Origin: Lysobacterales bacterium | Lineage (GTDB): Bacteria > Pseudomonadota > Gammaproteobacteria > Xanthomonadales > Rhodanobacteraceae | Reading direction: 5' to 3' | Length of the DNA stretch: 41,961 nt | Assembly (NCBI GenBank): GCA_021324945.1 | Contig: JAJPID010000024.1 | Location: 1-41,961 of the forward strand | Shown here: positions 9,826 to 31,425 of the stretch, piece by piece | Layout of the letters: each line of letters opens with the position of its first letter | Position numbering within the stretch: the first letter of the stretch is position 1 | Program-made: the position numbers and the translations under genes | The notes under the pieces: model-generated | Database searches by the model: none | What the model was told of the DNA's origin: nothing | Seen by the model: only the letters and a program-made list of their open reading frames with translations

Positions 9826-11331
9826 CTATTTCTTTGCCGGGGCGGTGGTTGATGCCAATTTCGAATCGGCATCATTCCATCCGCCGCCCAGTGCGGCGTA
9901 GAGCGCAGCGGTGTCGGACAGGCGCGCGGCGCGCGCCTGGATCAGCGCGATGCGCGCCTGCTGGTACTGGCGTTCGGCATCCAGCAGTGTGAGGTAGTCC
10001 ACCGCGCCGACGCGATACTGGCTGCGTGTGAGATCGAGACGCTTCGATGCCGATTGCTCGGCGATGTTTTGCGCGGCCAAACCTTGCGCGTCGAAATCCA
10101 ACGCCTGCAGCGAATCGGCGACATTCTGGAAGGCAGTCAGCACGGTCTGCTGCCAATCGGCGAGCGCAGCATCCATCGCCGCCTGCGCCGCGCGTTTCTT
10201 GTGCAGCAATTCGCCGCCATGGAAGATCGGCTGCAACAGATTCAAACCCAGCGACCACGCCCCGGTGCCGGCGGTGAACAGATCGCCCGATTTCAATGCC
10301 TGCGAGCCGGCGCTGCCGGAGAGCGTGATCTGCGGCAGCATGTTGGCGATCGACACGCCGACGTTCGCGGTCGCGGCATGCAATTGCGCGCTGGATGCGC
10401 GGATGTCCGGCCGCTGCTCGACGATCTTCGAGGGCAGGCTGACCGGCACGTCCTGCGGCAGCGTCACATTCGCCAGTTCGATCGGCTGCAACTGCAATTG
10501 CGCGGGAGGGATGCCGAGATACGTCGCCAGTTGATCCTGCGTGGCGGAAAGCTGTTTGCGCAACGGCGGCAGCGTGGCTTCGGTTGCGGCCAGCTGCGAC
10601 TGCACCGCCAGCGTATCGGACAGCGATTTCGCACCGATCGCCTGCTGCTTGCGCGCGATATCGAGTTCCTTGCGCAAGGAATCGGCGATTTCCTCAGTCG
10701 CACGCACCTGTTCGCGCAGGGAGGCTTCCTGCAGCGACGCGGTCACGACATTGGTGGCGAGGATCAGGTAGGTCGCATCCAGTTGCGCGCGCTGCGCATC
10801 GGCCAACGCGGATTGCGCTTCGACGCCGCGGCGCACGCCGCCGAAGATGTCGAAGACGTAGCCGACACTGACGCCCGCGTTGTAGACCGTGTACGGGCCG
10901 GTTGCGCCGCCTGCGGCTTGCACGCTGGACAACTTGCTGCGCGTCGCGCCGGCATTGGCATCCAGCGACGGAAACAAACCGCCGCGTGCGGCCTTGGCGT
11001 TCTCTTCGGCTTCGCGCAGGGTGGCGCGCGCGGAGGCGATCGTCGGCGAATGCGCCAGCGCCTCATTCACGCGACGGTTCAGTTCGTCGTTGCCGAACGT
11101 CGTCCACCAGTGCTGTGGCACGTCCTGGCCCTCGAGAAAACGCTGCGCGTCGCCGCCGGCCGTGTCCGTGGAAACCGTCTGCGCCGGCAACGGCTGCACG
11201 GTGTAACGGTCCACCGACGGTGCGTCGGGGCGATGGTAGTTCGGCCCCACCGCGCAACCGGCGAGCGCCAGCATCAGGGCGCCGGCCAGCGTGCGCGGCG
11301 TCAGCGAGGGAAAAGGTTTGAGATCGATCAT
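9826..11331 (-). CDS. Outer-membrane efflux lipoprotein (OprM/NodT family)
   Basis: A 501-residue TolC-type outer-membrane duct. The lipobox LALAGC places the acylated Cys at residue 26, followed by AVGPNYHRPD, the standard start of the mature NodT family. Two repeats of long alpha-helical hairpins rich in Ala, Gln and Leu follow, as expected for two OEP domains. It is the first gene of the leftward operon, so the order is outer-membrane factor, adaptor, pump. The ATG at 11331 gives a normal lipoprotein signal; an in-frame start at 11379 would add 16 residues with no signal features. A promoter and an operator-like site lie about 55-95 bp upstream. Confidence 0.93.
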   Translation of the reverse strand: MIDLKPFPSLTPRTLAGALMLALAGCAVGPNYHRPDAPSVDRYTVQPLPAQTVSTDTAGGDAQRFLEGQDVPQHWWTTFGNDELNRRVNEALAHSPTIASARATLREAEENAKAARGGLFPSLDANAGATRSKLSSVQAAGGATGPYTVYNAGVSVGYVFDIFGGVRRGVEAQSALADAQRAQLDATYLILATNVVTASLQEASLREQVRATEEIADSLRKELDIARKQQAIGAKSLSDTLAVQSQLAATEATLPPLRKQLSATQDQLATYLGIPPAQLQLQPIELANVTLPQDVPVSLPSKIVEQRPDIRASSAQLHAATANVGVSIANMLPQITLSGSAGSQALKSGDLFTAGTGAWSLGLNLLQPIFHGGELLHKKRAAQAAMDAALADWQQTVLTAFQNVADSLQALDFDAQGLAAQNIAEQSASKRLDLTRSQYRVGAVDYLTLLDAERQYQQARIALIQARAARLSDTAALYAALGGGWNDADSKLASTTAPAKK

Positions 11332-20776: not shown

Positions 20777-21083
20777 TCCATGTTGGAGATTTTTCAGCCC
20801 TCCGTGAATGCGGAGGGATGGCCCGCTGTTGCCCGAGTTTCGACAACATGCAGCGCTGCAATGTTTGCCGTCGTCTCGTGTTGCGGGGGAGCCAGAGCAG
20901 GGAAGAACATTCTGGATTCGGATGCCCGGAGGGGAAGGCATGCGGAATGACGGGCGGGCCAGGATTTGACGCGAGCTCCCTTGAATGGCAGCTCGCGTCG
21001 GCGAGCGCCCGCACTGGAACGTGCGGGCGGGAAAGCGATTCACGGACGACTGCTTGCGAGTCCTCTTTTTGACACATGCCCTC
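20777..21083. other. Gene-free gap with three hairpins between ubiK and comM
   Basis: This 307-bp gap has no supported gene. It holds three perfect hairpins. CCCTCCG/CGGAGGG is at 20798-20817 (loop tgaatg), GACGCGAGCT/AGCTCGCGTC is at 20968-20999, and CGCCCGCAC/GTGCGGGCG is at 21006-21029 (loop tggaac). The last two lie in the likely leader of comM. None is followed by a U run, so they are not simple terminators. Confidence 0.6.
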
Positions 21084-22601
21084 ATGTCTCTCGCCGTCGC
21101 TTTAACCCGCGCACAGGAAGGTGTCGCCGCACCGCTCGTGACGGTGGAGGTGCATTTGTCCGGCGGCTTGCCCGGCACGTCCATCGTCGGCTTGCCGGAG
21201 GCGGCGGTGCGCGAAGCGCGCGACCGCGTGCGTGTGGCGATCCAGAACACGCAGTTTGAATATCCTGCGCGGCGCGTCACGGTGAACCTCGCGCCAGCCG
21301 AATTGCCAAAAGATGGCGGGCGTTTCGACCTTGCCATCGCGCTCGGCATTCTTGCAGCGGGCGGACAGTTACCGCGCGAGGCGCTGCGCGGCTGCGAGTT
21401 CCTGGGCGAACTCGCGCTATCCGGTGAATTGCGCCCGGTCACCGGCGTGTTGCCTGCGCTGTTGCGCGCGCGCCATGGCAAGCGCTGCGTGATCGTGCCG
21501 ATCGAAAATGCACACGAGGCGGCATTGTTGAACGACGTCGAAGTGCGCGTGGCGCGCACGCTGGCTGACGTCTGCGCGCATCTGCGCGGTGTGGAACCGT
21601 TGCCGACGCCGAGGGTGGAAACCGAATCGTCCACCGCCAACGACGACGAGCCCGATCTCGCCGACGTGCGCGGACAATTGCATGCGCGGCGCGCATTGGA
21701 GATCGCCGCGGTGGGCGCGCACCACCTGTTGATGATCGGGCCGCCCGGCACTGGCAAGTCGATGCTGGCCGCACGCCTGCCGGGCATTCTGCCGCCACTG
21801 TCGGAAAGCGAAGCGTTGCAGGCCTGCGCGGTGCGTTCGGTCTGCGGCTTGCCGATCGAGCCGGACCGCTGGAAGCGCCGGCCGTTCCGGGCCCCGCATC
21901 ACACCGCTTCCGCCGTCGCGCTGGTCGGAGGCGGTTCGCATCCGCGGCCCGGCGAAATTTCGCTGGCGCATCACGGCGTGCTGTTTCTCGACGAATTGCC
22001 CGAGTACGACCGGCACACGTTGGAAGTGCTGCGCGAACCGCTGGAATCCGGCCGCATCGTGATCTCGCGCGCGGCGCGGCAGGCAGAATTTCCCGCGTGC
22101 TTCCAACTGGTCGCGGCGATGAATCCCTGCCCCTGCGGCTACGCCGGCGATCCCAACGGTCGCTGCCGCTGCACGCCCGATGCGATCGCGCGCTATCGCG
22201 GCCGCATCTCCGGGCCGCTGCTCGATCGCATCGATCTCACCGTCGATGTGCCGCGCCTGCCGTTGTCGGAATTGGACGGCGCGCGCCGCCCGCAGGACGA
22301 ACCTTCCGCCGCGGTGCGCGAACGCGTGATCGCCGCACGCGCGATCGCGATGGCGCGCAGCGGCAAGCCCAATGCCGCACTCACCACGCGCGAGATCGAA
22401 CGCGATTGCGCACTGGGGACCAACGAACGCGCGTTGCTGCAACGCGCGCTGGACAAATTCGGCCTGTCCGCGCGCGCCTACCACCGCGTGTTGCGCGTCA
22501 CCCGCAGCATCGCCGACCTCGCGCATAGCGATCGCATCGGCCGCGAGCATCTGGCCGAGGCGCTGCAGTACCGGCGAATAAACGCCGCGTCGAACCAGTG
22601 A
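21084..22601 (+). CDS. comM: YifB/ComM family Mg chelatase-like AAA+ ATPase
   Basis: A 505-residue protein with an N-terminal ChlI-like fold (SIVGLPEAAVREARDRV and PAELPKDGGRFDLAIAL), a Walker A in GPPGTGKSMLA, a Walker B in VLFLDELPEY, and the C-terminal segment with CPCGYAGDP that is diagnostic of YifB/ComM. In naturally competent bacteria ComM is a hexameric helicase that extends branch migration during transformation, and this full-length homologue suggests the same. The ATG at 21084 begins the conserved MSLAVALTRAQEG. No strong ribosome site is seen. It ends convergent with the dehydrogenase gene. Confidence 0.95.
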   Translation: MSLAVALTRAQEGVAAPLVTVEVHLSGGLPGTSIVGLPEAAVREARDRVRVAIQNTQFEYPARRVTVNLAPAELPKDGGRFDLAIALGILAAGGQLPREALRGCEFLGELALSGELRPVTGVLPALLRARHGKRCVIVPIENAHEAALLNDVEVRVARTLADVCAHLRGVEPLPTPRVETESSTANDDEPDLADVRGQLHARRALEIAAVGAHHLLMIGPPGTGKSMLAARLPGILPPLSESEALQACAVRSVCGLPIEPDRWKRRPFRAPHHTASAVALVGGGSHPRPGEISLAHHGVLFLDELPEYDRHTLEVLREPLESGRIVISRAARQAEFPACFQLVAAMNPCPCGYAGDPNGRCRCTPDAIARYRGRISGPLLDRIDLTVDVPRLPLSELDGARRPQDEPSAAVRERVIAARAIAMARSGKPNAALTTREIERDCALGTNERALLQRALDKFGLSARAYHRVLRVTRSIADLAHSDRIGREHLAEALQYRRINAASNQ

Positions 22602-22734: not shown

Positions 22735-23922
22735 TCAATGTCCGGAGTTTGTCCAGACTTTTCCCTCCGGATCGAACTCGACCGTCACCCTTTTGTTCGC
22801 GCGCGCCCCGAATCCGCACACGGCGAGCGGGCCCTCGGCCATCGGATCGAGATCGAACGCCTGCTCGATGTCGGCTTCGTTGATCGCGGCAGTGATGAAG
22901 GCGCCGAGGTTCGATTCAGTGGCGGCGAGGTACAGCGTCTGCGACAGATGCCCCGCATCCAGGATCACCGCGCGGTAGGCCTTGGCGTGGTTGCGGTATT
23001 TCCAGAAATTGCGGTGGAAACGTGCGCACAGCGCGATCAGCACCGGCGCCTGGGCGTAGTACGCCTGCGCCGCGACGAAAGTGCGCGCGAGCGTGGCGGC
23101 TTCGTCGGCGGACAACAAATGCAGCGGCTCCAACGCATGATCGGTCGGGTGATAGTGATACAAACCCGCCGCGATGCCTGCCACGCTCTGCACCAGCAGA
23201 TAGGCTTCCACCGCATGCAGGCCGCCGGCCGAAGGCGAGGATTTTTTCAGCAACTGCACCCCGGGCGCGTAATCGCTGACCGCACGCGCGCCGAACGCGC
23301 GATACAGCACGGCGGAGAAATCGGCTTGCGCAAGCGGATGCGCATCGAAATTGCGGCAGGTGACGCGGCGTTCGGTCAGCGCATCCAATGCCGAATGCGG
23401 CGGACGCTGCAGAGACAAACGCTGCCGAGCATCGACGCGCTCGCGCACCGGCGGCGGCGAAGCGCCCAGCCGTTCCAGAAACGTCTGCTCGCTGGCCTCG
23501 GAAAAGCGCCGCTCGGCCTCCTCGGTGTCCACGCCGCGCCAGCGCGTGTGCCGGTGCATCACCGCGGCCAGATCGCGCCAATGCGTTGCGCGCAGCGCTT
23601 CGTCGTGTTGCGCATGTTCGCTCGAGGCCGCACCGTCGCCGTCCTGCGCGATCAGCAATCCTTTCGCCAGCAGTGCATCCAGCACAGCGCGTGGATGGCG
23701 TTGCGCGAGACCATCGAACGACACCCATCTATTCGGCGACAACTCGCCCAACAGCGCGACCTCCGCCGCATCCAGCGCGATCTCATCGTCGCGATGCGCG
23801 GTCAACGCGATCCATTCGAGTACGCTGCGCACACCGGTTTCGCCGCCCAGCAGCGCATTCAAATCGAAACCGATCGACTCGCGCGGCTCGATCAGCAGCG
23901 TCGCGCAGCGACGGACTTGCAT
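22735..23922 (-). CDS. SagB-type nitroreductase-fold dehydrogenase (putative peptide maturation dehydrogenase)
   Basis: A 395-residue protein. Residues 1-130 form an N-terminal helical, winged-helix-like part. Residues about 180-395 are the SagB/ThcOx nitroreductase fold, with the FMN-contacting ERRVTCRNF (184-192), the KSSPSAGGLHAVEAYL block (227-242) and a closing PLAVCGFG (365-372). SagB enzymes oxidise azolines to azoles in RiPPs after a YcaO cyclase, but no YcaO gene is seen here. From memory, NCBI has a xanthomonad-enriched family named 'putative peptide maturation dehydrogenase' (TIGR04511) that this fits. The ATG at 23922 has GGGGA upstream. It is divergent from the broken precursor gene. 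Confidence 0.88.
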   Translation of the reverse strand: MQVRRCATLLIEPRESIGFDLNALLGGETGVRSVLEWIALTAHRDDEIALDAAEVALLGELSPNRWVSFDGLAQRHPRAVLDALLAKGLLIAQDGDGAASSEHAQHDEALRATHWRDLAAVMHRHTRWRGVDTEEAERRFSEASEQTFLERLGASPPPVRERVDARQRLSLQRPPHSALDALTERRVTCRNFDAHPLAQADFSAVLYRAFGARAVSDYAPGVQLLKKSSPSAGGLHAVEAYLLVQSVAGIAAGLYHYHPTDHALEPLHLLSADEAATLARTFVAAQAYYAQAPVLIALCARFHRNFWKYRNHAKAYRAVILDAGHLSQTLYLAATESNLGAFITAAINEADIEQAFDLDPMAEGPLAVCGFGARANKRVTVEFDPEGKVWTNSGH

Positions 23923-24020
23923 GGCTTTCCCCGATTCGCAAAGCCCGCCAGCCTAGGCGGCGGCGGTACAAGGACGCAAGTCTCTGCTGGCGTGTTGTTT
24001 CCAATAACGGCGAGACCGAG

Positions 24021-24341
24021 ATGCCCGATTTCACCGCGACACAGGAACACGCAGTGACTGGAACAGCGAAAGCGTGGACACGGCCGGCGGGAAGACGACC
24101 GCGACTGCGCTGGCCGCATTGGGTGTGCCGCAAACTCTGATCGACAGTCTTTTCAGCAAGCAGCACGGCGTCCATGCGGCTTGCTCCGCGACAGACATTC
24201 GCGGATGCATTGAGACACTTCAAACAAGGCGCCGCGAAAATCGCGGCATGTCAATGCGCACCGCAGCTCGGCCTTTCAATCGGGGCACAATCCGATGTAC
24301 CACCGGCGCGCCCGGATTGCGTTTGCAGCACGATAAGCTGA
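24021..24341 (+). pseudogene. Second RiPP precursor gene disrupted by frame changes
   Basis: An ATG at 24021 after GAGACCGAG opens MPDFTATQEHAVT, like the start of the intact precursor at 24459. The frame then runs into a TGA at 24138-24140. The missing leader core is found in another frame (24107-24150) as ALAALGVPQTLIDSL, close to ALAELGVPHETIINL of the intact peptide. The first frame resumes with MRLAPRQTFADALRHF from 24174, comparable to CLAPATLADKPRF, and ends at a TGA at 24339. LAP falls at codons 54-56 in both genes, so the shifts compensate in length. The tail has CQC and CVC pairs. This is decay, sequence error or, less likely, programmed frameshifting. Confidence 0.65.
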
Positions 24342-24406
24342 GCTGATGAGCCCAACAATTCGGAAAATGGGTGACTGAGCAAGTTTGAGAGGCACGAAGA
24401 CGGCGG

Positions 24407-24437
24407 CTGGCAGGACGCTTGCATAGGAGTCTGCCAG
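24407..24437. promoter_or_regulatory. Inverted repeat upstream of the precursor start
   Basis: CTGGCAG (24407-24413) is matched, inverted, by CTGCCAG (24431-24437) with a 17-nt loop that contains AGGAG. It ends 21 bp before the GTG start of the precursor gene and would be in its leader RNA or act as an operator. The effect is unknown. Confidence 0.35.
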
Positions 24438-24458
24438 TCCATCCATCAGGAACCCACC

Positions 24459-24749
24459 GTGGCCGATTCGTCGCTTTCGCGCGAGCATTCGCTCGCCCTG
24501 TTGCAGAAGCTCGCCACAGATGACGATTTCCGCAGTCGTTTCGAACAGAAGCCCGCTGCCGCGCTGGCCGAACTGGGCGTGCCACATGAGACGATCATCA
24601 ATCTGAAGGCATCATGCCTGGCGCCGGCTACTTTGGCGGACAAGCCGCGTTTCATCCAGGCGCATCAAGAGTTGTCCAATGCAGCAGCCGAAAATTGCTT
24701 GATGATGGTCATACCCAACGCTCAACTGGACATGGGATCAAAACGATAA
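24459..24749 (+). CDS. NHLP-related RiPP precursor peptide
   Basis: A 96-residue peptide whose first 50 residues have the nitrile-hydratase-like leader pattern: LLQKLATDDDFRSRF (14-28), then KPAAALAELGVP (31-42). The rest, from ASCLAP (51-56) to the end, would hold the core; its only cysteines are Cys53 and Cys80 (ENCLMMVIPN). From memory the family is 'NHLP-related RiPP peptide' (TIGR04509). The start is a GTG at 24459 with AGGA seven bases upstream. It lies between the SagB-type dehydrogenase and the cyclase-TPR gene, and converges with the latter with an 18-bp gap. The local GC content is near 50%, lower than in the flanking genes. Confidence 0.85.
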   Translation: MADSSLSREHSLALLQKLATDDDFRSRFEQKPAAALAELGVPHETIINLKASCLAPATLADKPRFIQAHQELSNAAAENCLMMVIPNAQLDMGSKR

Positions 24750-24767
24750 ACTGGATTTGTTTCAAAG

Positions 24768-27404
24768 TCAGCGCAATTTCTCAATCCGCGACGCCACCCA
24801 CGGCAGTTGTATTGCCGAAGGCCATGCATTCTCGAAAGAGGCCAGAGAACGTTGCGCTTCGATCGCATCACCCGAAATCTTGGCCAACTCTGCTATCCGC
24901 AACAGCGCAAGATCGGATACTGCGACGTTAAATGGCGTAAGCGTGAATAGCATGTTGCTCTCCACATAGGCACGCCCGCGATGACTCGACAACCAGCGAG
25001 CTTCCGCAAGAGCATTGCTGTCATGGGCATCAACATAGGCATCCATCAGCGCAGCGTGTGTAATGTACAACTCGCTGCCGTTCACCAGCGACTTCAAAAT
25101 TGCGAGTGCGTTCTGTGGATGGCCGGACGCGCGTTCAATTTCAGCCTTTGCTACACCACGCATATTGTCAAGTACTGGCGTGTCCGCTTCGGAATTCGGC
25201 CCACTCGCGATCAATGCGTGCTCTGCCAGCTTTGTATCACCCGCATGCGCAGCAAGATACGCCGCCAACGCAATCTGGAATCTCAATTCGGATCGATCGA
25301 CCAGATTGGCTTGCGCAAGGGCTCTCTCCTCTCGCGCGAGATAGTTCTTGACCGCCCTCACTTGCGCCTCAGACGATGTTCCGTCCAGCGCTTGCAAACT
25401 CAATTCCATGGCGATGTAACGTCCAGCGATACGCGGCCCTAGCGAATCTGCCTTCAGGCGCGCTCCAGCGAGCAAATTTTCTGCATCGGCCCAGTTACCC
25501 TGGTCGAGTGCTATTGCAATGCTTGTGCTGTTATTGATGACGTCGAAACTGTCAGTACCGGACGATTTGCCGCGCTCAATCAAACCAATGGCTTCTTTGA
25601 ATTTTCGTTGAGCTGCATACGCGCAGGCGTAAAGGGAGTTTTGATAATGAGCGCCATCAGCAACCGACCGTGAGAATGCGCGCACTGCGTCAGTGTATCT
25701 GCCAGCTTCGACGTAAAACGCACCAAGTAAATATTCACTGGTTGCCCGATGGGGATTCTTGGACGAAGCTGATTGTTCAAGATAGGGGATAGCTTCCTCG
25801 AAGCGATTGGCGTACAGCGAGAGAAAATAGGCATATGCACCGATGCCCGGGAAATAATCTGGGTAAATGGTTGCCAGCAGCTTCCATTTCTCCAATTCCT
25901 GCCGTGGTGCTGTGTAACGAGTTGCCCGGGCATCTATATACAAGGCATCTCGCGGGGACAGACGTGCACGCTCCGCTTGAGCGGCACGGATTTCTGTCAG
26001 AGCCTTGTCTGGTTGATCTTCGCTATCGAAGATGTTGGCTAGCGCGATACGCGCTAATGCAAAATGAGGATCAATTCGCAGTGCCTGGACGAAATAAGCT
26101 TCTGCATTATTGAATTCGGCTTTGTCGTAAGCTCGTTCACCAAGTGAATAGGCTCTCAGCGCGTCAAGATTTGCAGTTGCGACGTCAGACAATGGCTGCG
26201 ACTGTTTTGAAACCATCGCCAGCGCTTCGCCGAGTTTGCCGCGCAGTTGTTTGCTGACGTCATCCAGCGAGGGCAGCACGGATTGCGCGCCAACGCCATC
26301 GGCGGAAACGGAATACACCGTGGCCTGCGTGTTGGGGTCGATCACCTCGGCGGTGATGCGCACACGGCCGCCGACCTCGGCCAGCGTAGGCAGAATCAGC
26401 GCGCGCGCACCTTCGCGGATGGCGATTTCCGAACCGATCGCGCGATTCACTTTCGTCTTGTCCGGATCACGCTGCATGCGTTGCAGGGTTTCCTGTACCG
26501 ACAGTTCCGGCAGCACGTTGACGTACTGCGATTGCTCCAGGCTGATGTGCAACGCGGTGTCGACCGACTGGTCGAAACGCGGTTCGCCGGTGAGGTTCTG
26601 CAGGTCGCCCACCACCACCCAGTCGCGCTTGCCGAAGGCGAGCGTGGGCGGGCTTTGCAGCAGGAACCACGCAGCCGTCCCGATGCCGATCGCGACCAGC
26701 GCGGCTTCCGCGGCCAGCGTCAGCGGCCGACGCCACCACGGCAGGATTCTTTTCGCGTTGCGCATCGATCGCGGCGCGTGCAGCGGCGCGATCTTCTCCT
26801 CGCCAATCTCGATCACTTCCAGCGGATCGGGCAGGCCCTTGAAACGGTAGCGGCCGTGGTCCTTCCAGTGCACGTGCGCGGCGGCGCGGCCGAGTTCGCC
26901 CTGCGCGCGGCGCGCGATATCGGCGGCGGCGGACGAACTCAATATCTGCTGCGGCAGCGCCAGTTGCGCCAGCCGCGCGGCGACCGGCTTCACCAAGCCC
27001 TCCACTTCGATCGGCTTGGCGCCACGCGACACGTCTTCCGGCGCGTTCTCCCAGATCACCACGTCGCCCATGTGGATGCCCACGCGCGCGCGAAGCACCA
27101 CACCTTCGGCGGCGGAAAGATGTTTCAGTCCGCGCTGGTAATCCAGCGCGAAGGCCACCGCCTGAATCGGGCGGTCGAACAGCAGCAGGAACCCGTCGGT
27201 CTTGTCGATCTCGCGGCCGCGGTGCTGCTCGATTAGCGCGCGCGCCAGGCGGTCGTGCTTGCGGATGATGTTGGCCGCGTTCTGATCGCCCATGCGCTCG
27301 ACCAGCGCGGTGGAATCGGCGATGTCGCACACCACAAGCGTGCGCAGTTGCGGCGTGGCGAGGTGGCCGGGACGGGGAGGCAGTTCGTGGATTGAGGCGT
27401 TCAT
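24768..27404 (-). CDS. Class III nucleotide cyclase - TPR membrane protein (putative peptide modification system cyclase)
   Basis: An 878-residue protein in four parts. Residues 18-150 are a class III cyclase domain with metal-binding D27 (VVCDIADST) and D70 (DKTDGF), purine-contacting K68, and RVGIHMGDV at 107-115. The position of the transition-state Asn reads P140 in VKPVAARL, while R144 is kept. A membrane helix spans about 228-249. A TolB/FlgO-like segment follows to about 400, and TPR-like repeats fill 405-878. From memory this matches 'putative peptide modification system cyclase' (TIGR04510), a family found beside such precursors. GGAG lies eight bases before the ATG. The TPR half is clearly less GC-rich than the cyclase half. 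Confidence 0.87.
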   Translation of the reverse strand: MNASIHELPPRPGHLATPQLRTLVVCDIADSTALVERMGDQNAANIIRKHDRLARALIEQHRGREIDKTDGFLLLFDRPIQAVAFALDYQRGLKHLSAAEGVVLRARVGIHMGDVVIWENAPEDVSRGAKPIEVEGLVKPVAARLAQLALPQQILSSSAAADIARRAQGELGRAAAHVHWKDHGRYRFKGLPDPLEVIEIGEEKIAPLHAPRSMRNAKRILPWWRRPLTLAAEAALVAIGIGTAAWFLLQSPPTLAFGKRDWVVVGDLQNLTGEPRFDQSVDTALHISLEQSQYVNVLPELSVQETLQRMQRDPDKTKVNRAIGSEIAIREGARALILPTLAEVGGRVRITAEVIDPNTQATVYSVSADGVGAQSVLPSLDDVSKQLRGKLGEALAMVSKQSQPLSDVATANLDALRAYSLGERAYDKAEFNNAEAYFVQALRIDPHFALARIALANIFDSEDQPDKALTEIRAAQAERARLSPRDALYIDARATRYTAPRQELEKWKLLATIYPDYFPGIGAYAYFLSLYANRFEEAIPYLEQSASSKNPHRATSEYLLGAFYVEAGRYTDAVRAFSRSVADGAHYQNSLYACAYAAQRKFKEAIGLIERGKSSGTDSFDVINNSTSIAIALDQGNWADAENLLAGARLKADSLGPRIAGRYIAMELSLQALDGTSSEAQVRAVKNYLAREERALAQANLVDRSELRFQIALAAYLAAHAGDTKLAEHALIASGPNSEADTPVLDNMRGVAKAEIERASGHPQNALAILKSLVNGSELYITHAALMDAYVDAHDSNALAEARWLSSHRGRAYVESNMLFTLTPFNVAVSDLALLRIAELAKISGDAIEAQRSLASFENAWPSAIQLPWVASRIEKLR

Positions 27405-27416
27405 GACTACAGCTCC

Positions 27417-27500
27417 GTTCGCGCTGAGCGTAGTGAGCGCAGCGAACGGAGTCGAAGCGTTCTTCGACTACGGCCCTGCGGGCCCGCGCTCAGGACGAAC
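27417..27500. repeat. 84-bp palindromic repeat element with inverted ends
   Basis: The ends GTTCGCGCTGAGCG (27417-27430) and CGCTCAGGACGAAC (27487-27500) are inverted copies with 12 of 14 matches. Inside are two hairpins: GTCGAAG/CTTCGAC at 27451-27468 and GGCCC/GGGCC at 27472-27484. It fills most of the gap between the GGDEF gene and the cyclase-TPR gene and ends just before the latter's ribosome site. It looks like a non-coding, MITE- or REP-like insertion. Confidence 0.7.
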
Positions 27501-27526
27501 CTCAAGAACGTTCGTCCCGGGGAAAG

Positions 27527-28552
27527 TCACATCAACACATGCGCGCCGTCGCCGCCGGAGCCCTTGACGTGATAGAGCGCGCAATCGGCCTCGCTGTACC
27601 ACACCGACCAGCCGGCTTCGTCACGGCAGAGGCTGCCGCCCACACTCACCGACACGCGCAAATCCGCCGGCGCGTTGCGGAAGCGCAACTGCCGCACGCC
27701 CTCTGCGATGCGCAATGCGCGGTCGGCCAGCTCGCGCTGATCCAGCACCTGCGCCAGCAATGCGAATTCGTCGCCGCCCAGACGGCAGGGCAGATCGATC
27801 GCCGTGGACGCCTCCTGCACTTCGGCCGCGACCGCGCGCAGCACCTCGTCGCCGACCAGATGGCCCGCGCGGTCGTTGATCTGCTTGAAATGATCCAGAT
27901 CGATCAGCAGCAGGCCGAGCATGCGCGTGCGTTCGCGCATTTCGCCCATCGTTTCGAGATAGCGGTACAGCGCGCGCCGGTTGCACAGACCGGTGAGGTC
28001 GTCGGTGCAGACCTGCCGGCGCGCGAGGTGCAGTTGATCTTGAGTCTGCCGCAGCGAATCCAGCGTCTGGATCAGATCCTCGTTGCGGCGCTTGTAGTTC
28101 GTAATGAGTTGCTGCTCGCTCGCCACCAGATAGGAAAACGAGCGGCGCATGAACTGCGCCAGTAGTTGCGGCTCGCGTTCCAGCAAGTCGTCGAAGGCTT
28201 CCTGCTCGATCATGCGCAGCACGCAATGTTCGGCCGCGACCGCACTGCCCGAGCGCGCGTGGTTGCCGACGAACAGCGCGAGCTCGCCGAAGAATTCGCG
28301 CGGGCCGATCAGCTTGTCCGGCAGGTCGCCGCAGAATTCCAGCAACACGCGGCCCTGTTCGATCACGAACATCGCGCGGCCGAACTCGCCGCGGCGGAAA
28401 ACGGTCTGCCCTGGCATCAGCTCGCGCCGCTCGCCGGCGGAAACCAGCAGCGAGAATTCCGCATCCGATAACTGGCGCGGCAGCCGTGCCACGCGCGCAC
28501 TCACGTGCGGCGCTTCGCGCTCGGCTGTGGCTTGGGCTTCAGCGTGGGACAC
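27527..28552 (-). CDS. Cyclic nucleotide-binding domain - GGDEF diguanylate cyclase
   Basis: A 341-residue soluble protein. Residues about 30-140 form a cNMP-binding fold with FGELAL (88-93) and a phosphate-binding Arg100 in HARSGSAVA. A coiled linker (145-180) leads into a GGDEF domain with DDLTGLCNRRAL and an intact GGDEF motif at 259-263, so it should make c-di-GMP. The inhibitory I-site RxxD reads TAID (250-253), so product inhibition is probably lost. The start is given as a GTG at 28552 behind GGGGGAG, though spacing is short; a TTG at 28606 is the alternative. Position upstream of the cyclase gene suggests it may sense the cyclase's product. Confidence 0.88.
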   Translation of the reverse strand: MSHAEAQATAEREAPHVSARVARLPRQLSDAEFSLLVSAGERRELMPGQTVFRRGEFGRAMFVIEQGRVLLEFCGDLPDKLIGPREFFGELALFVGNHARSGSAVAAEHCVLRMIEQEAFDDLLEREPQLLAQFMRRSFSYLVASEQQLITNYKRRNEDLIQTLDSLRQTQDQLHLARRQVCTDDLTGLCNRRALYRYLETMGEMRERTRMLGLLLIDLDHFKQINDRAGHLVGDEVLRAVAAEVQEASTAIDLPCRLGGDEFALLAQVLDQRELADRALRIAEGVRQLRFRNAPADLRVSVSVGGSLCRDEAGWSVWYSEADCALYHVKGSGGDGAHVLM

Positions 28553-28627
28553 GGCCTCCCCCTTGAAGGCACACAGCTGCCGATAGTACCGCAACTCGCT
28601 GATCAAGACAGGGCCGCCGCGCGGATT

Positions 28628-29215
28628 TTAGATACCGCGGTTTTTCCCCCGGAACGGCGCGTAAAAGCTGCGCAGCGCGGCGATGTCGGCGGCCATATTC
28701 GCGGTCGGTTGGAACAGCGGGCCGACGCCGATCACCTTGCGCGGATAATCGAAATAGGCGGGAATGACCGGCACGCCCGCCTCGCGCGCGATCCGCCAGA
28801 AGCCGCTCTTCCATTGGGCCACCTGCTTGCGCGTGCCTTCCGGTTCGACTCCGAGCCAGAAACGTTCTCGCATTTGGAACTGCCGCACCATCTGTTCGAC
28901 CACGCCGTGCGCGGCGCGGCGTTCGATCGGAATGCCGCCGAGCTTGCGCAGCAACGGGCCGAGGGGCCATGCGAACAATTCGCGCTTGGCCATGAACGAG
29001 ATGTCCACGCCCAACGCGACCTTGAACAACAGGCCGTGCACGCCGTCCCACCACGATGAATGCGGCGCGGCGATCAGTACGGCTTTCGGAACGTCCGGAA
29101 GCTCGCCTTCGAACCGCCAGCCGCTGACGCGCACGATGCCGCGAAAGAGCTTCCGCCAGGCACGCTGCCGAAATTGCGGTGCGTGCGGCGGCAACCGCGA
29201 AGGCAGCGGACTCAA
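28628..29215 (-). CDS. PlsC-like 1-acyl-glycerol-3-phosphate acyltransferase family protein
   Basis: A 195-residue acyltransferase. The catalytic HX4D motif is HSSWWD at 52-57 and the substrate-binding motif is EPEGTR at 124-129. The short length without long membrane helices matches a PlsC-like branch that modifies lysophospholipids or ornithine lipids rather than full-size PlsC. The start is a TTG at 29215 that overlaps the stop of arfB, so translation is probably coupled. The true acyl acceptor is not known. Confidence 0.87.
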   Translation of the reverse strand: MSPLPSRLPPHAPQFRQRAWRKLFRGIVRVSGWRFEGELPDVPKAVLIAAPHSSWWDGVHGLLFKVALGVDISFMAKRELFAWPLGPLLRKLGGIPIERRAAHGVVEQMVRQFQMRERFWLGVEPEGTRKQVAQWKSGFWRIAREAGVPVIPAYFDYPRKVIGVGPLFQPTANMAADIAALRSFYAPFRGKNRGI

Positions 29216-29631
29216 TCTTCGCTCCAGCCGCGCGCGCGATTGCGCTTGATCCGGCCGCGCTTCTGCTTGCCGGCCAGGCGACGCTCTCTCGAAGCGCGCG
29301 TCGGCTTCGTGGCGATGCGCTTCTTCGGCACATGCAGCGCGCTGCGGATCAGTTCGATCAAACGCTCGCGCGCGTCTTCGCGGTTGCGCGCCTGATCGCG
29401 GAAACGCCGCGCCTGGATCACCAGCACGCCGTCGTCGGTCAGCCGGCGATCGTTGCGCGCCAACAAGCGCTCGCGCACGTCATCCGGCAACGATGGCGAA
29501 TGCACCACGTCGAAACGCAATTCCACCGCGCTCTCGGTGCGGTTGACGTGCTGCCCGCCCGGACCATCCGCGCGCAAAAAGCGCTCGGTGAGTTCGGAGT
29601 CGGGGATGGCGAGGGCGGAAGTGATGCGCAT
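29212..29631 (-). CDS. arfB: Alternative ribosome-rescue peptidyl-tRNA hydrolase ArfB
   Basis: A 139-residue release-factor homologue that frees stalled ribosomes lacking a stop codon. The catalytic GGQ is in GPGGQHVN (23-30), followed by the TESAVELRFD block. The C-terminal tail from about residue 105 is very basic (KPTRASRERRLAGKQKRGR), as needed to enter the empty mRNA channel. Length matches the family. The ATG at 29631 is clear. The stop overlaps the acyltransferase start. Confidence 0.96.
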   Translation of the reverse strand: MRITSALAIPDSELTERFLRADGPGGQHVNRTESAVELRFDVVHSPSLPDDVRERLLARNDRRLTDDGVLVIQARRFRDQARNREDARERLIELIRSALHVPKKRIATKPTRASRERRLAGKQKRGRIKRNRARGWSED

Positions 29632-29655
29632 ACGACGACTTTACACACTCTCCGC

Positions 29656-29678
29656 CATTCCGGCGAAAGCCCGAACCC
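29656..29678. repeat. REP-like fragment
   Basis: ATTCCGGCGAAAGCCCG in the gap between ubiB and arfB is a partial copy of the ATTCCGGC-type repeat seen intact near 14037-14056. Its second arm is decayed. Confidence 0.45.
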
Positions 29679-29772
29679 AGTGACTTTTTTCACAAGATCT
29701 CTTGGTTCGGCTCGCAGCCGAAGACGGCGCTGAAAGCCTGCTCGATAGGGCCATCCTTGGCCGAACTTTCAG

Positions 29773-31425
29773 CTACCGACTTCGCCACGGCCAAGCGATC
29801 GCAAACGTGCCCAATCCAATTGCAAGCGCCACGATTTCCAACCACGGCGCCCGCGCTGGCGCGAGGACGAACATCAGCGCGGCGCTGACCACCAGCGCGC
29901 CGCCGAACGAGGCGGCGAGGATTCTGCGTTGCGTGTCGCGCTGCGCGGCGTGCAGGAATTGCAACTCCTGCGAGGTGACATCCACGCGCGTGGCGCCCTG
30001 CGCCAGTTTCTGCAAACCCGTGTGCACCAGGTCGGGAATCTGCGGCGCGATGTGCAGCCACTCCGGCACGCGGCGGCGGATCTCACGCAGCGCGCGCAGC
30101 GGGTTGTAGCGGCGCGCCAGAATCCGCTTCAGTTCCGGATACGCCACTGCCCAGATGTCGATCTGCGGATCGAGCTGCCGGCCCAGACCTTCGATGTTCA
30201 ATAGCGTCTTCTGCAACAGGATCAATTGCGGTTGCAGCGTCAGTTCGAACTGCCGCGCGGTGTTGAACATCTTGGCGATCACCTCGGCCAGCGAGATTTC
30301 CGACAGCGGCCGGGTGAAATACGGTTCGCACACCGTGCGCACTGCGGTTTCCAATTCGTCCAGTCGCACGTCCGCAGGCACCCAGCCGGCCGCGACGTGC
30401 AATGCCGCGATGCGCCGGTAATCGCGTTCGAACAGCGCCATGAAATTCTCGGCCAGCCAGTACTGGTCGGCTTCCGGCAGCGTGCCCATGATGCCGAAAT
30501 CCAGCGCGATGAAACGCGGATCCTCGACGCGCGTCGTGTCCACCCAGATGTTGCCCGGGTGCGCATCGGCGTGAAAGAAGTTGTCGCGGAAGACCTGCGT
30601 GTAGAACAGCCGCACGCCCTTGGCGGCGAGATGACGACGATCGATGCCGGCCGCATCCAGCGCGGCGATATCGTCGGCCGGAATGCCGTGCACGCGCTCC
30701 ATCGTGAACACGCGCTCGTTGGTGTGCGACCAATGCACCTCAGGCACGTACAGATCGGGCGAGTCGGTGAAATTGCGCCGCAGCAGGCTCGCGTTCGCCG
30801 CTTCGCGTTGCAGGTCGAGTTCGTGATAGAGCGTCTTCTCGATTTCCTCGACGATTTCCTGCGGCCGAATCTTGTCTGCCTGCGGATGCCAACGCGCGAC
30901 GAGATTGGCCAGCGCGTGCAGCAGATCGAGATCGCGTGCGATCTGTTTGCGGATGCCGGGGCGGACGACCTTGACGACGACCTCGCGGCCGTCCGGCAAT
31001 GCCGCCGCGTGCACCTGCGCGATCGAAGCCGAGGCCAGTGGTGTTTCATCGAAACGCGCATACAACGCGGTGATCGGCGCATCCAGCGCTTCCTCGACGA
31101 TGGCGCGCGCCTGAGCGCCGGGAAACGGCGGCACCTGATCCTGCAGCAGCGCCAGTTCGTCGGCTACGTCCGGCGGCAAGAGGTCGCGGCGCGTGGACAA
31201 CACCTGCCCGGCCTTGACATAGATCGGCCCCAGTTGCGTCAATGCCAGGCGCAAGCGCGCACCGCGCGGCATCGATGCAATCTCCGTACGAGGTTTCGGC
31301 AACACAGCGCGCGCCCATTGCAGCGGACGCATCACGTGCGCTTCGTCGATCAGATCGTCCAGCCGGTAGCGCACCAACACCGCAAGAACACGCAGCACAC
31401 GCGGGAACAGCCGCAGCGGTGTCAT
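29773..31425 (-). CDS. ubiB: Ubiquinone biosynthesis kinase-like protein UbiB
   Basis: A 550-residue atypical kinase of the UbiB/ADCK family needed for ubiquinone biosynthesis, probably for lipid extraction by ATPase action. The family-specific KxGQ motif is KAGQ at 71-74. Other marks are the Ala-rich loop [11 protein letters not shown], the metal-binding FHADAHPGN and LDFGIMG. Two hydrophobic helices near the C-terminus (about 500-520 and 525-545) anchor it in the inner membrane. It shares a four-base ATGA overlap with ubiJ upstream. Confidence 0.96.

Follow-up and report, generated by a model that had tools for sequence, protein, structure and literature searches.

What would a peptide precursor and a SagB-type dehydrogenase do beside a nucleotide cyclase and a cyclic-nucleotide-binding (CNB) GGDEF protein? 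This question is raised by a four-gene locus in the 41,961-nucleotide stretch of DNA analyzed here (contig JAJPID010000024.1 of a Lysobacterales bacterium), which is referred to in full as the window. The cyclase and the GGDEF protein are homologues of XC_0250 and XC_0249 of Xanthomonas campestris, which act in a pathway from cyclic GMP (cGMP) to cyclic di-GMP (c-di-GMP). Comparison of related loci provides good support for a new feature, in which the cyclase's sensor half is swapped jointly with the precursor and the dehydrogenase as a cassette on a conserved cGMP/c-di-GMP output. A ligand role for the modified peptide at a receptor guanylate cyclase, arranged as in ComQXPA and agr but of unrelated parts, is given about an even chance. 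The features of the locus are listed below, where TPR denotes tetratricopeptide repeat.

22735..23922, minus strand: SagB-type dehydrogenase (TIGR04511), 395 residues; profile match, Lys308-Tyr309 of the SagB core retained
24095..24251, plus strand: remnant of a second precursor, two weak pieces (8.1 and 9.2 bits) in two frames, between the dehydrogenase and the intact precursor
24459..24749, plus strand: precursor (TIGR04509), 96 residues, GTG start; leader about residues 1–42, second helix 59–79, tail 80–96
24696..24746, plus strand: precursor codons 80–96, flexible tail and likely core, from the model and conservation
24768..27404, minus strand: guanylate-cyclase-like membrane protein with a TPR part (TIGR04510), 878 residues, XC_0250 homologue
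26790..27404, minus strand: cyclase residues 1–205, conserved catalytic half by homologue comparison
26661..26717, minus strand: cyclase residues 230–248, single membrane segment predicted from hydrophobicity
24771..26660, minus strand: cyclase residues 249–878, predicted periplasmic TPR half; its distal part lies in the swapped cassette of relatives
27527..28606, minus strand: CNB-GGDEF protein, 359 residues from the TTG at 28606; XC_0249 homologue, CNB domains 40% identical
28175..28426, minus strand: CNB domain (PF00027), profile match
27551..28006, minus strand: GGDEF domain (PF00990), profile match, GGDEF motif intact

The genes lie in the order dehydrogenase (minus), precursor (plus), cyclase (minus), and GGDEF (minus). 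The dehydrogenase and the precursor are divergent; the precursor and the cyclase are convergent, with 18 bases between the stop codons and no overlap of the 3′-ends (24749–24768). All four genes are present as stated in a preliminary description made from the sequence, and the end given there for the CNB-GGDEF gene, 28552, is a GTG in frame with the TTG start at 28606. The window dehydrogenase, precursor, and cyclase score 480.3, 65.5, and 867.4 bits against the NCBIfam profiles TIGR04511, TIGR04509, and TIGR04510, for which the curated cut-offs are 240, 34, and 400, respectively. The family numbers given in the preliminary description are correct. The GGDEF protein scores 56.8 against PF00027 (cut-off 27.5) and 115.9 against PF00990 (cut-off 23.8). 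One match to TIGR04509 and one match to TIGR04511 are found in the genome that carries the window, which is 99% complete.

The association of the genes was surveyed in 233 genomes of the family, where TIGR04511, TIGR04509, and TIGR04510 exceed their cut-offs in 53, 56, and 57 genomes, respectively. All three do so in 51 of the 58 genomes that contain any of them. In six of the other seven (G005, G017, G023, G147, G212, and G226) the locus is cut by a contig end, and in G142 the precursor scores below the cut-off. TIGR04510 is over its cut-off in 120 of 398 genomes sampled from the order, and the five genomes with a match in a class-wide sample of 369 all belong to this order. Loci were collected in a set of 140 (139 fetched loci and the window) and a set of 75, which share species. 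The first 59 loci were mostly picked by the dehydrogenase and the 75 by the GGDEF protein, and the counts lean accordingly; 80 loci were picked by the cyclase alone, from 79 of the 96 matching genomes of the order outside the window's family. All four genes are found in 114 of the 140 and 72 of the 75 loci. The GGDEF gene alone is missing in 19 of the 140, and more genes are missing in 7 of the 140 and 3 of the 75, several of the incomplete loci stopping at a contig end. In the cyclase-picked loci the dehydrogenase, precursor, and GGDEF genes are present in 76, 77, and 73 of 80, respectively. Among the 155 loci that hold a single complete cyclase together with one or more precursors, precursor and cyclase converge tail to tail in 153. 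A 3′-end overlap of the two genes occurs in 90 of the 155, often by 46, 49, or 61 bases. The GGDEF gene is on the strand of the cyclase in all 139 loci where it could be placed. Chance adjacency was rejected on the co-occurrence in family genomes and in order-wide loci, in agreement with the neighborhood of three families that had been claimed earlier. The locus is one co-inherited module, an association that is well supported, and the CNB-GGDEF gene is a regular fourth member that the earlier set of three had lacked. In loci L048, L053, L054, L061, L063, L154, and L155, the dehydrogenase, precursor, and cyclase genes occur with no GGDEF gene nearby.

The output of the module can be described from its X. 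campestris homologues. According to the accessible part of PMC3770947, the cyclase domain of XC_0250 makes cGMP, not cAMP (cyclic AMP), in vitro, and Leu157 to Ala abolished its activity. XC_0249 binds cGMP at 0.29 μM, more than 60 times better than cAMP, and its synthesis of c-di-GMP is raised by cGMP. Both proteins affect biofilm and virulence, and gene regulation is also a published output. The TPR part of XC_0250 is called uncharacterized by its authors. In the same part of that paper there is no mention of a precursor gene, a dehydrogenase gene, a peptide, or an input signal. The statement in the preliminary description that the three families are experimentally uncharacterized is half correct: the cyclase has a characterized homologue in XC_0250, as the GGDEF protein has in XC_0249.

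The best solved-structure sequence match of the window GGDEF protein is 5h5o. The letters of 5h5o agree at seven positions published for XC_0249, and the entry is therefore taken for the CNB domain of XC_0249; the structure entry named in the accessible part of PMC3770947 itself is 4KG1. Identity to 5h5o reaches 97% among Xanthomonas GGDEF proteins, and cyclases of 886 residues, the published length of XC_0250, adjoin those GGDEF genes in four loci (L093–L096). Nine Xanthomonas loci were compared at published positions. For XC_0250, with no shift in numbering, all six positions match in three loci and five of the six match in another five; L122, the remaining locus, is shorter at the N-terminal end and kept its own numbering. 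For XC_0249, all seven positions match in every one of the nine loci. X. campestris itself is not among the loci, and the Xanthomonas proteins are apparently orthologues of XC_0250 and XC_0249.

The residues are conserved well beyond Xanthomonas. F73, E90, L91, H98, and E146 of the CNB domain are invariant in 194 of 194 proteins from the order, and the GGDEF motif is intact in all of them. Position 145 is occupied by Asn in 135 of the 194 and by Ser in 51. The window protein keeps four of the five cGMP residues (F73, E90, H98, N145, and E146), with Ser163 in place of N145. In the cyclase, D41, D71, and A150 are retained in 215, 219, and 220 of 221 homologues, respectively, and position 73 carries Leu in 130 and Phe in 71 (Phe72 in the window). 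D40, D70, A149, and A160 of the window protein match D41, D71, A150, and A161 of XC_0250. The window protein is expected to be a guanylate cyclase, with caution about Ser156, which is discussed below. The tie of the locus to the published cGMP-to-c-di-GMP pathway is well supported, as is the link to cyclic nucleotides drawn in the preliminary description.

In Xanthomonas the locus has a mosaic make-up. Relative to the X. hortorum locus L171, the GGDEF protein is 77–100% identical and cyclase residues 1–205 are 84–100% identical in 25 other loci. For 13 of these 25, identity drops to 14–60% over the cyclase from residue 206 to the end, 18–35% for the precursor, and 29–48% for the dehydrogenase. 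L188 and L185 are also low in parts, because of broken genes. The borders were located by comparison of the X. arboricola loci L177 and L182, in which the DNA is 90% identical up to position 10082 and 93% identical from 13385; between them there is a single stretch of 65.6% identity, in the dehydrogenase. The tree sisters L180 and L167 show 100% identity in the initial 200 compared cyclase residues and 11–60% identity further on. Single-linkage classes were formed with cut-offs of at least 50% for the TPR half, at least 50% for the precursor, and at least 60% for the dehydrogenase, excluding X. phaseoli L188 (broken cyclase) and, for the dehydrogenase classes, X. vasicola L185 (broken dehydrogenase). 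Classes A, B, C, D, and E contain 12, 6, 5, 1, and 1 loci, respectively. The labels of the TPR half and the precursor are concordant in 25 of 25 loci, and those of the dehydrogenase in 24 of 24. On a tree made from the contiguous upstream flank, the GGDEF gene, and the cyclase start, the labels need nine changes, against a minimum of four and a shuffled mean of 11.8. It is well supported that precursor, dehydrogenase, and TPR half change together as a bounded cassette of about 3.3 kb between conserved flanks.

The cassettes also have relatives outside the genus. With classes A, B, and C, ranking of the loci outside Xanthomonas gives the same nearest three whether it is done by the TPR half or by the precursor. 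The class E TPR half, precursor, and dehydrogenase are 41, 55, and 51% identical to those of L143 and 18–22, 18–19, and 30–31% identical to those of classes A and B, whereas the class E GGDEF protein is 61% identical to that of L143 and 90% identical to those of classes A and B. The cassettes evidently cross genus borders. The broken genes among the loci are dehydrogenase pieces of 110 residues (L096) and 216 residues (L185, X. vasicola) and a cyclase piece of 341 residues (L188, X. phaseoli). In the accessible part of PMC4046712 (Table 4), the XCC0232/XCC0240 glyoxylate region is listed as absent in X. fragariae, X. oryzae pathovar oryzae (Xoo), and X. albilineans.

The same behavior is found across the order. 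In the window's own genus, L051 and L086 belong to another class (cyclase 24–30% identical from residue 411 on, precursor 14–17%). In L069 the sensor half (37–38%) and the precursor (39%) are swapped and the dehydrogenase is ordinary (71%). For an order-wide comparison, 127 of 144 single-copy loci were kept after removal of 17 identical sets, which is the only redundancy removed; loci without one copy of each gene were excluded. In 290 pairs, drawn from 75 of the 127 loci, both the GGDEF proteins and the catalytic halves are 80% alike or more; these pairs share loci and are not independent. TPR-half identity in the 290 pairs is bimodal, below 40% in 177 and at least 70% in 90. Of the 186 pairs with TPR halves under 50%, 182 have precursors under 50% and 163 have dehydrogenases under 60%. 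The 92 pairs with TPR halves at 60% or more all have like precursors and like dehydrogenases. After the overlapping gene ends were trimmed, the precursor counts were 182 of 186 and 89 of 92, and the antisense overlap of precursor and cyclase was rejected as the sole cause of the covariation.

The nearest TPR-half relative outside the close group is within the top five for the precursor in 93 of 127 loci; the corresponding value for the TPR half and the GGDEF protein is 45 of 127. In 9 of 11 loci with two cyclases there is a precursor for each cyclase, and four of these nine share one dehydrogenase. The catalytic halves in the nine are 45–96% alike, the TPR halves 23–32%, and the precursors 18–37%; L055 is cut and could not be measured. 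Covariation was calculated for 99 sets, reduced from 144 single-copy sets, the pairs again not being independent. Correlations of r = 0.86 for the catalytic half with the CNB domain and r = 0.71 for the TPR solenoid with the C-terminal part of the dehydrogenase were obtained. The value for the precursor tail with the solenoid is 0.47 after controls and 0.28 with the dehydrogenase controlled too; for the tail with the membrane-near TPR part it is only 0.10 (−0.16). Precursors are multiplied at two loci: L157:5407-19998 holds about ten, along with five dehydrogenase genes or pieces, and L163:4723-6794 holds a row of five that are nearly identical.

The swapped half of the cyclase should be periplasmic by prediction, given that the cyclase domain is cytosolic and that an arginine-rich stretch precedes the membrane segment. 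One hydrophobic segment of membrane-spanning length is present in 164 of 176 complete cyclases, two in seven, and none in five; the first segment starts at a median residue of 219.

The chemistry of the dehydrogenase was considered from its domain and its genomic context. The window protein matches the TIGR03605 domain, and McbC is among its PDB sequence matches. Lys308-Tyr309, which we take to be the catalytic pair of the SagB-type dehydrogenase family, is retained in 98–99% of 207 dehydrogenases. YcaO (PF02624) has no match in the window's own genome, and control genomes match in 5 of 14; it is found in 8 of the 233 family genomes and in none of the 58 that bear the locus. This supports the YcaO-free route claimed in the preliminary description. 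The azole-forming systems (thiazole/oxazole-modified microcins, TOMM, and linear azole-containing peptides, LAP), represented by McbC and SagB, share the dehydrogenase domain and differ by the YcaO that the window genome lacks; an azole (TOMM) product was rejected on that ground. An azoline is for the same reason an unlikely substrate, and direct oxidation would be likelier.

Alignment of 255 precursors gives a common leader (DD.FR, AL, and G), a second helix (LA.K), and a variable tail. The structural model of the window precursor is a helical bundle over residues 8–80 with a floppy end. A fold search with this model returned Os1348 and SonA first, with a best E of 0.5 and none at E ≤ 0.001; proteusin precursors and nitrile hydratase rank lower, beside unrelated folds and likewise without significance. 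The window precursor scores 14.9 bits against the nitrile hydratase leader peptide (NHLP) profile TIGR03793 (cut-off 50.9) and 26.2 bits against NF038399, the Os1348 family (cut-off 40), both below the cut-off. By profile, its relation to the NHLP leader precursors is seen only through TIGR04509. Support for the tail as the putative peptide core is mixed. In class B, where the precursor is clear of the cyclase gene, conservation peaks in the tail (89% vs 77% for the leader), and in class A the values are 86% and 81%, from 7 of the 12 loci and with an overlapping cyclase gene. In the eight loci of the window's genus the tail still keeps C..M and a Pro.

In the proposed mechanism, the dehydrogenase would oxidize the precursor, more likely by direct dehydrogenation dependent on flavin mononucleotide (FMN). 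The mature peptide, probably the C-terminal tail, would reach the periplasm and bind the TPR half of the cyclase. The cyclase would then make cGMP, as shown for XC_0250, and cGMP would bind the CNB domain and stimulate c-di-GMP synthesis by the GGDEF domain, as shown for XC_0249 (both in the accessible part of PMC3770947). Precursor, enzyme, and sensor half would form a matched specificity cassette, and relatives with different cassettes would not respond to one another. The exchange of the sensor half with the precursor and the dehydrogenase, with the output half kept, fits the peptide as the input. The reverse direction, in which signaling controls peptide production, had been suggested in the preliminary description and seems less likely on the same evidence. 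The pairing of a ligand with its receptor is the simplest account of the joint exchange of sensor half, precursor, and enzyme, and is rated as evenly balanced. The broader proposal of a Gram-negative peptide-pheromone system, with a dehydrogenase-modified peptide, a receptor guanylate cyclase, and pherotypes in Xanthomonas, Lysobacter, and relatives, which would supply the missing XC_0250-XC_0249 input, is advanced tentatively, at slightly under even confidence.

Several observations weigh against the peptide as ligand. Export is the weakest step. There is no exporter among the conserved neighbors (50 of the 140 loci were clustered) and no C39 peptidase domain in the window's own genome that would serve to bring a cytosolic peptide to a periplasmic sensor; the cyclase topology is itself a prediction. 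The window cyclase carries Ser156 (codon 26937–26939, minus strand) in place of the Leu157 of XC_0250, a serine unique to it within the 221 homologues, and some lineages have no neighboring GGDEF gene. No residue of the precursor tail is invariant, and the mid Cys is found in 74% of the precursors with that column. The class C tail is 72% conserved against 73% for the leader, and in the window's genus the tail is the least conserved part, 41% against 89%. For class D, a single locus (L195), none of the three nearest non-Xanthomonas loci is shared between the TPR half and the precursor. Like precursors occur in 4 of the 186 pairs with unlike sensor halves. One precursor only is present in 2 of the 11 two-cyclase loci and precursors outnumber cyclases in 26 of 215 loci, and a strict rule of one precursor per cyclase was therefore set aside as not general. 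Finally, the cassette is contiguous, and linkage could by itself produce the joint exchange of its parts.

This last point can be stated as an explanation of its own, in which an exposed TPR half diversifies under selection by phage, host, or envelope partners and the adjacent precursor and dehydrogenase are exchanged along with it. The three parts are indeed contiguous, flanked by well-conserved DNA and exchanged as blocks, and the 3′-end overlaps of precursor and cyclase noted above also speak for linkage. Linkage does not readily account for the absence of unlike precursors among the 92 pairs with like TPR halves, for the precursor per cyclase in nine duplicated loci, four of them with a single dehydrogenase, or for the closer agreement of the TPR half with the precursor than with the GGDEF protein in nearest relatives. 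Selection on the surface with linkage is the least probable of the alternatives and is considered improbable. It is also unlikely, to a slightly lesser degree, that the precursor is a small folded intracellular protein that binds, for example, the cyclase or the GGDEF protein and is modified or merely used by the dehydrogenase. The helical bundle of the model, the lack of a protease or exporter in the locus, and the first, though nonsignificant, fold match to Os1348, which was crystallized as a dimer (accessible part of PMC7726476), would suit such a protein. However, the part with which the precursor covaries is the TPR half, on the far side of the predicted membrane segment, and not the cytosolic catalytic half, and the tails of classes A and B are conserved in a class-specific manner.

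A bacteriocin or antibiotic of the RiPP type (ribosomally synthesized and post-translationally modified peptide) is somewhat less unlikely than either of these, though still well short of an even chance. Here the cyclase and the GGDEF protein would control production, or the TPR half would sense or neutralize the product (self-recognition), and the polymorphism would reflect an arms race. SagB enzymes are used in bacteriocin routes, and RiPP clusters commonly hold multiple precursors, as do the 26 loci with a surplus. The fold-related Os1348 of Pseudomonas, encoded next to a SagB-type gene, affects antibiotic activity (accessible part of PMC7726476). The missing exporter and C39 domain count against a bacteriocin as well, as do the position beside housekeeping genes across genera and the published outputs of the homologues in the accessible part of PMC3770947, namely biofilm, gene regulation, and virulence.

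The peptide-ligand reading can be placed among known systems. In the Bacillus system ComQXPA (ComQ-ComX-ComP) and the Staphylococcus system agr (AgrB-AgrD-AgrC), polymorphism extends over the modifying enzyme, the precursor, and the sensor part, which are swapped together. The comQXP polymorphism is described in the accessible part of PMC4408185. The present locus differs in its cGMP/c-di-GMP output and its unrelated enzyme, and no histidine kinase or response regulator domain is found among the listed matches of the four window proteins; it is therefore similar to ComQXPA and agr in genetics and not a member. XC_0250-XC_0249 share the cyclase-TPR and CNB-GGDEF genes in the same order with the published residues conserved; the window proteins are distant from them, with CNB domains at the 40% identity listed above, and no precursor or dehydrogenase is named in the accessible part of PMC3770947. 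The NCBI set TIGR04509/TIGR04510/TIGR04511, for which all three window proteins are over the curated cut-off, is named a putative peptide modification system without the CNB-GGDEF protein, and its descriptions do not include cassette swapping. The Os1348 cluster of Pseudomonas sp. Os17 has an NHLP-clan small protein beside a SagB-type dehydrogenase, the fold match being nonsignificant. That cluster contains an acetyltransferase, a peptidase-like protein, and efflux genes, with no mention of "cyclase" in the accessible part of PMC7726476, whereas the window has the cyclase and the GGDEF protein.

In the window the locus is flanked by a ComM-like gene (20985–22601, plus strand) and by a run of acyltransferase, RF-1-domain (release factor 1), and UbiB-like genes (28628–31425, minus strand). 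Neighbor clustering of the 50 loci shows that parts of both flanks reappear beside the locus in other genera, with malate synthase in 33 and ComM in 26 of the 50. A mobile cluster was set aside on these housekeeping flanks and on the confinement of the five class-wide matches to this order.

No literature linking the peptide-modification families to the cGMP-to-c-di-GMP pathway was found in a search that left most subscription journals outside its range. Two bodies of work are joined by this locus, a set of peptide-modification families free of experiment and a published cGMP-to-c-di-GMP pathway with an unknown input. To our knowledge, a receptor guanylate cyclase has not been described in bacteria. 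If the proposal is true, the cue of the pathway would be a self-made modified peptide with dialects, acting via a receptor guanylate cyclase and produced by a YcaO-free RiPP route. The question of what an XC_0250-type cyclase responds to becomes testable via the removal of one gene of about 300 bases.

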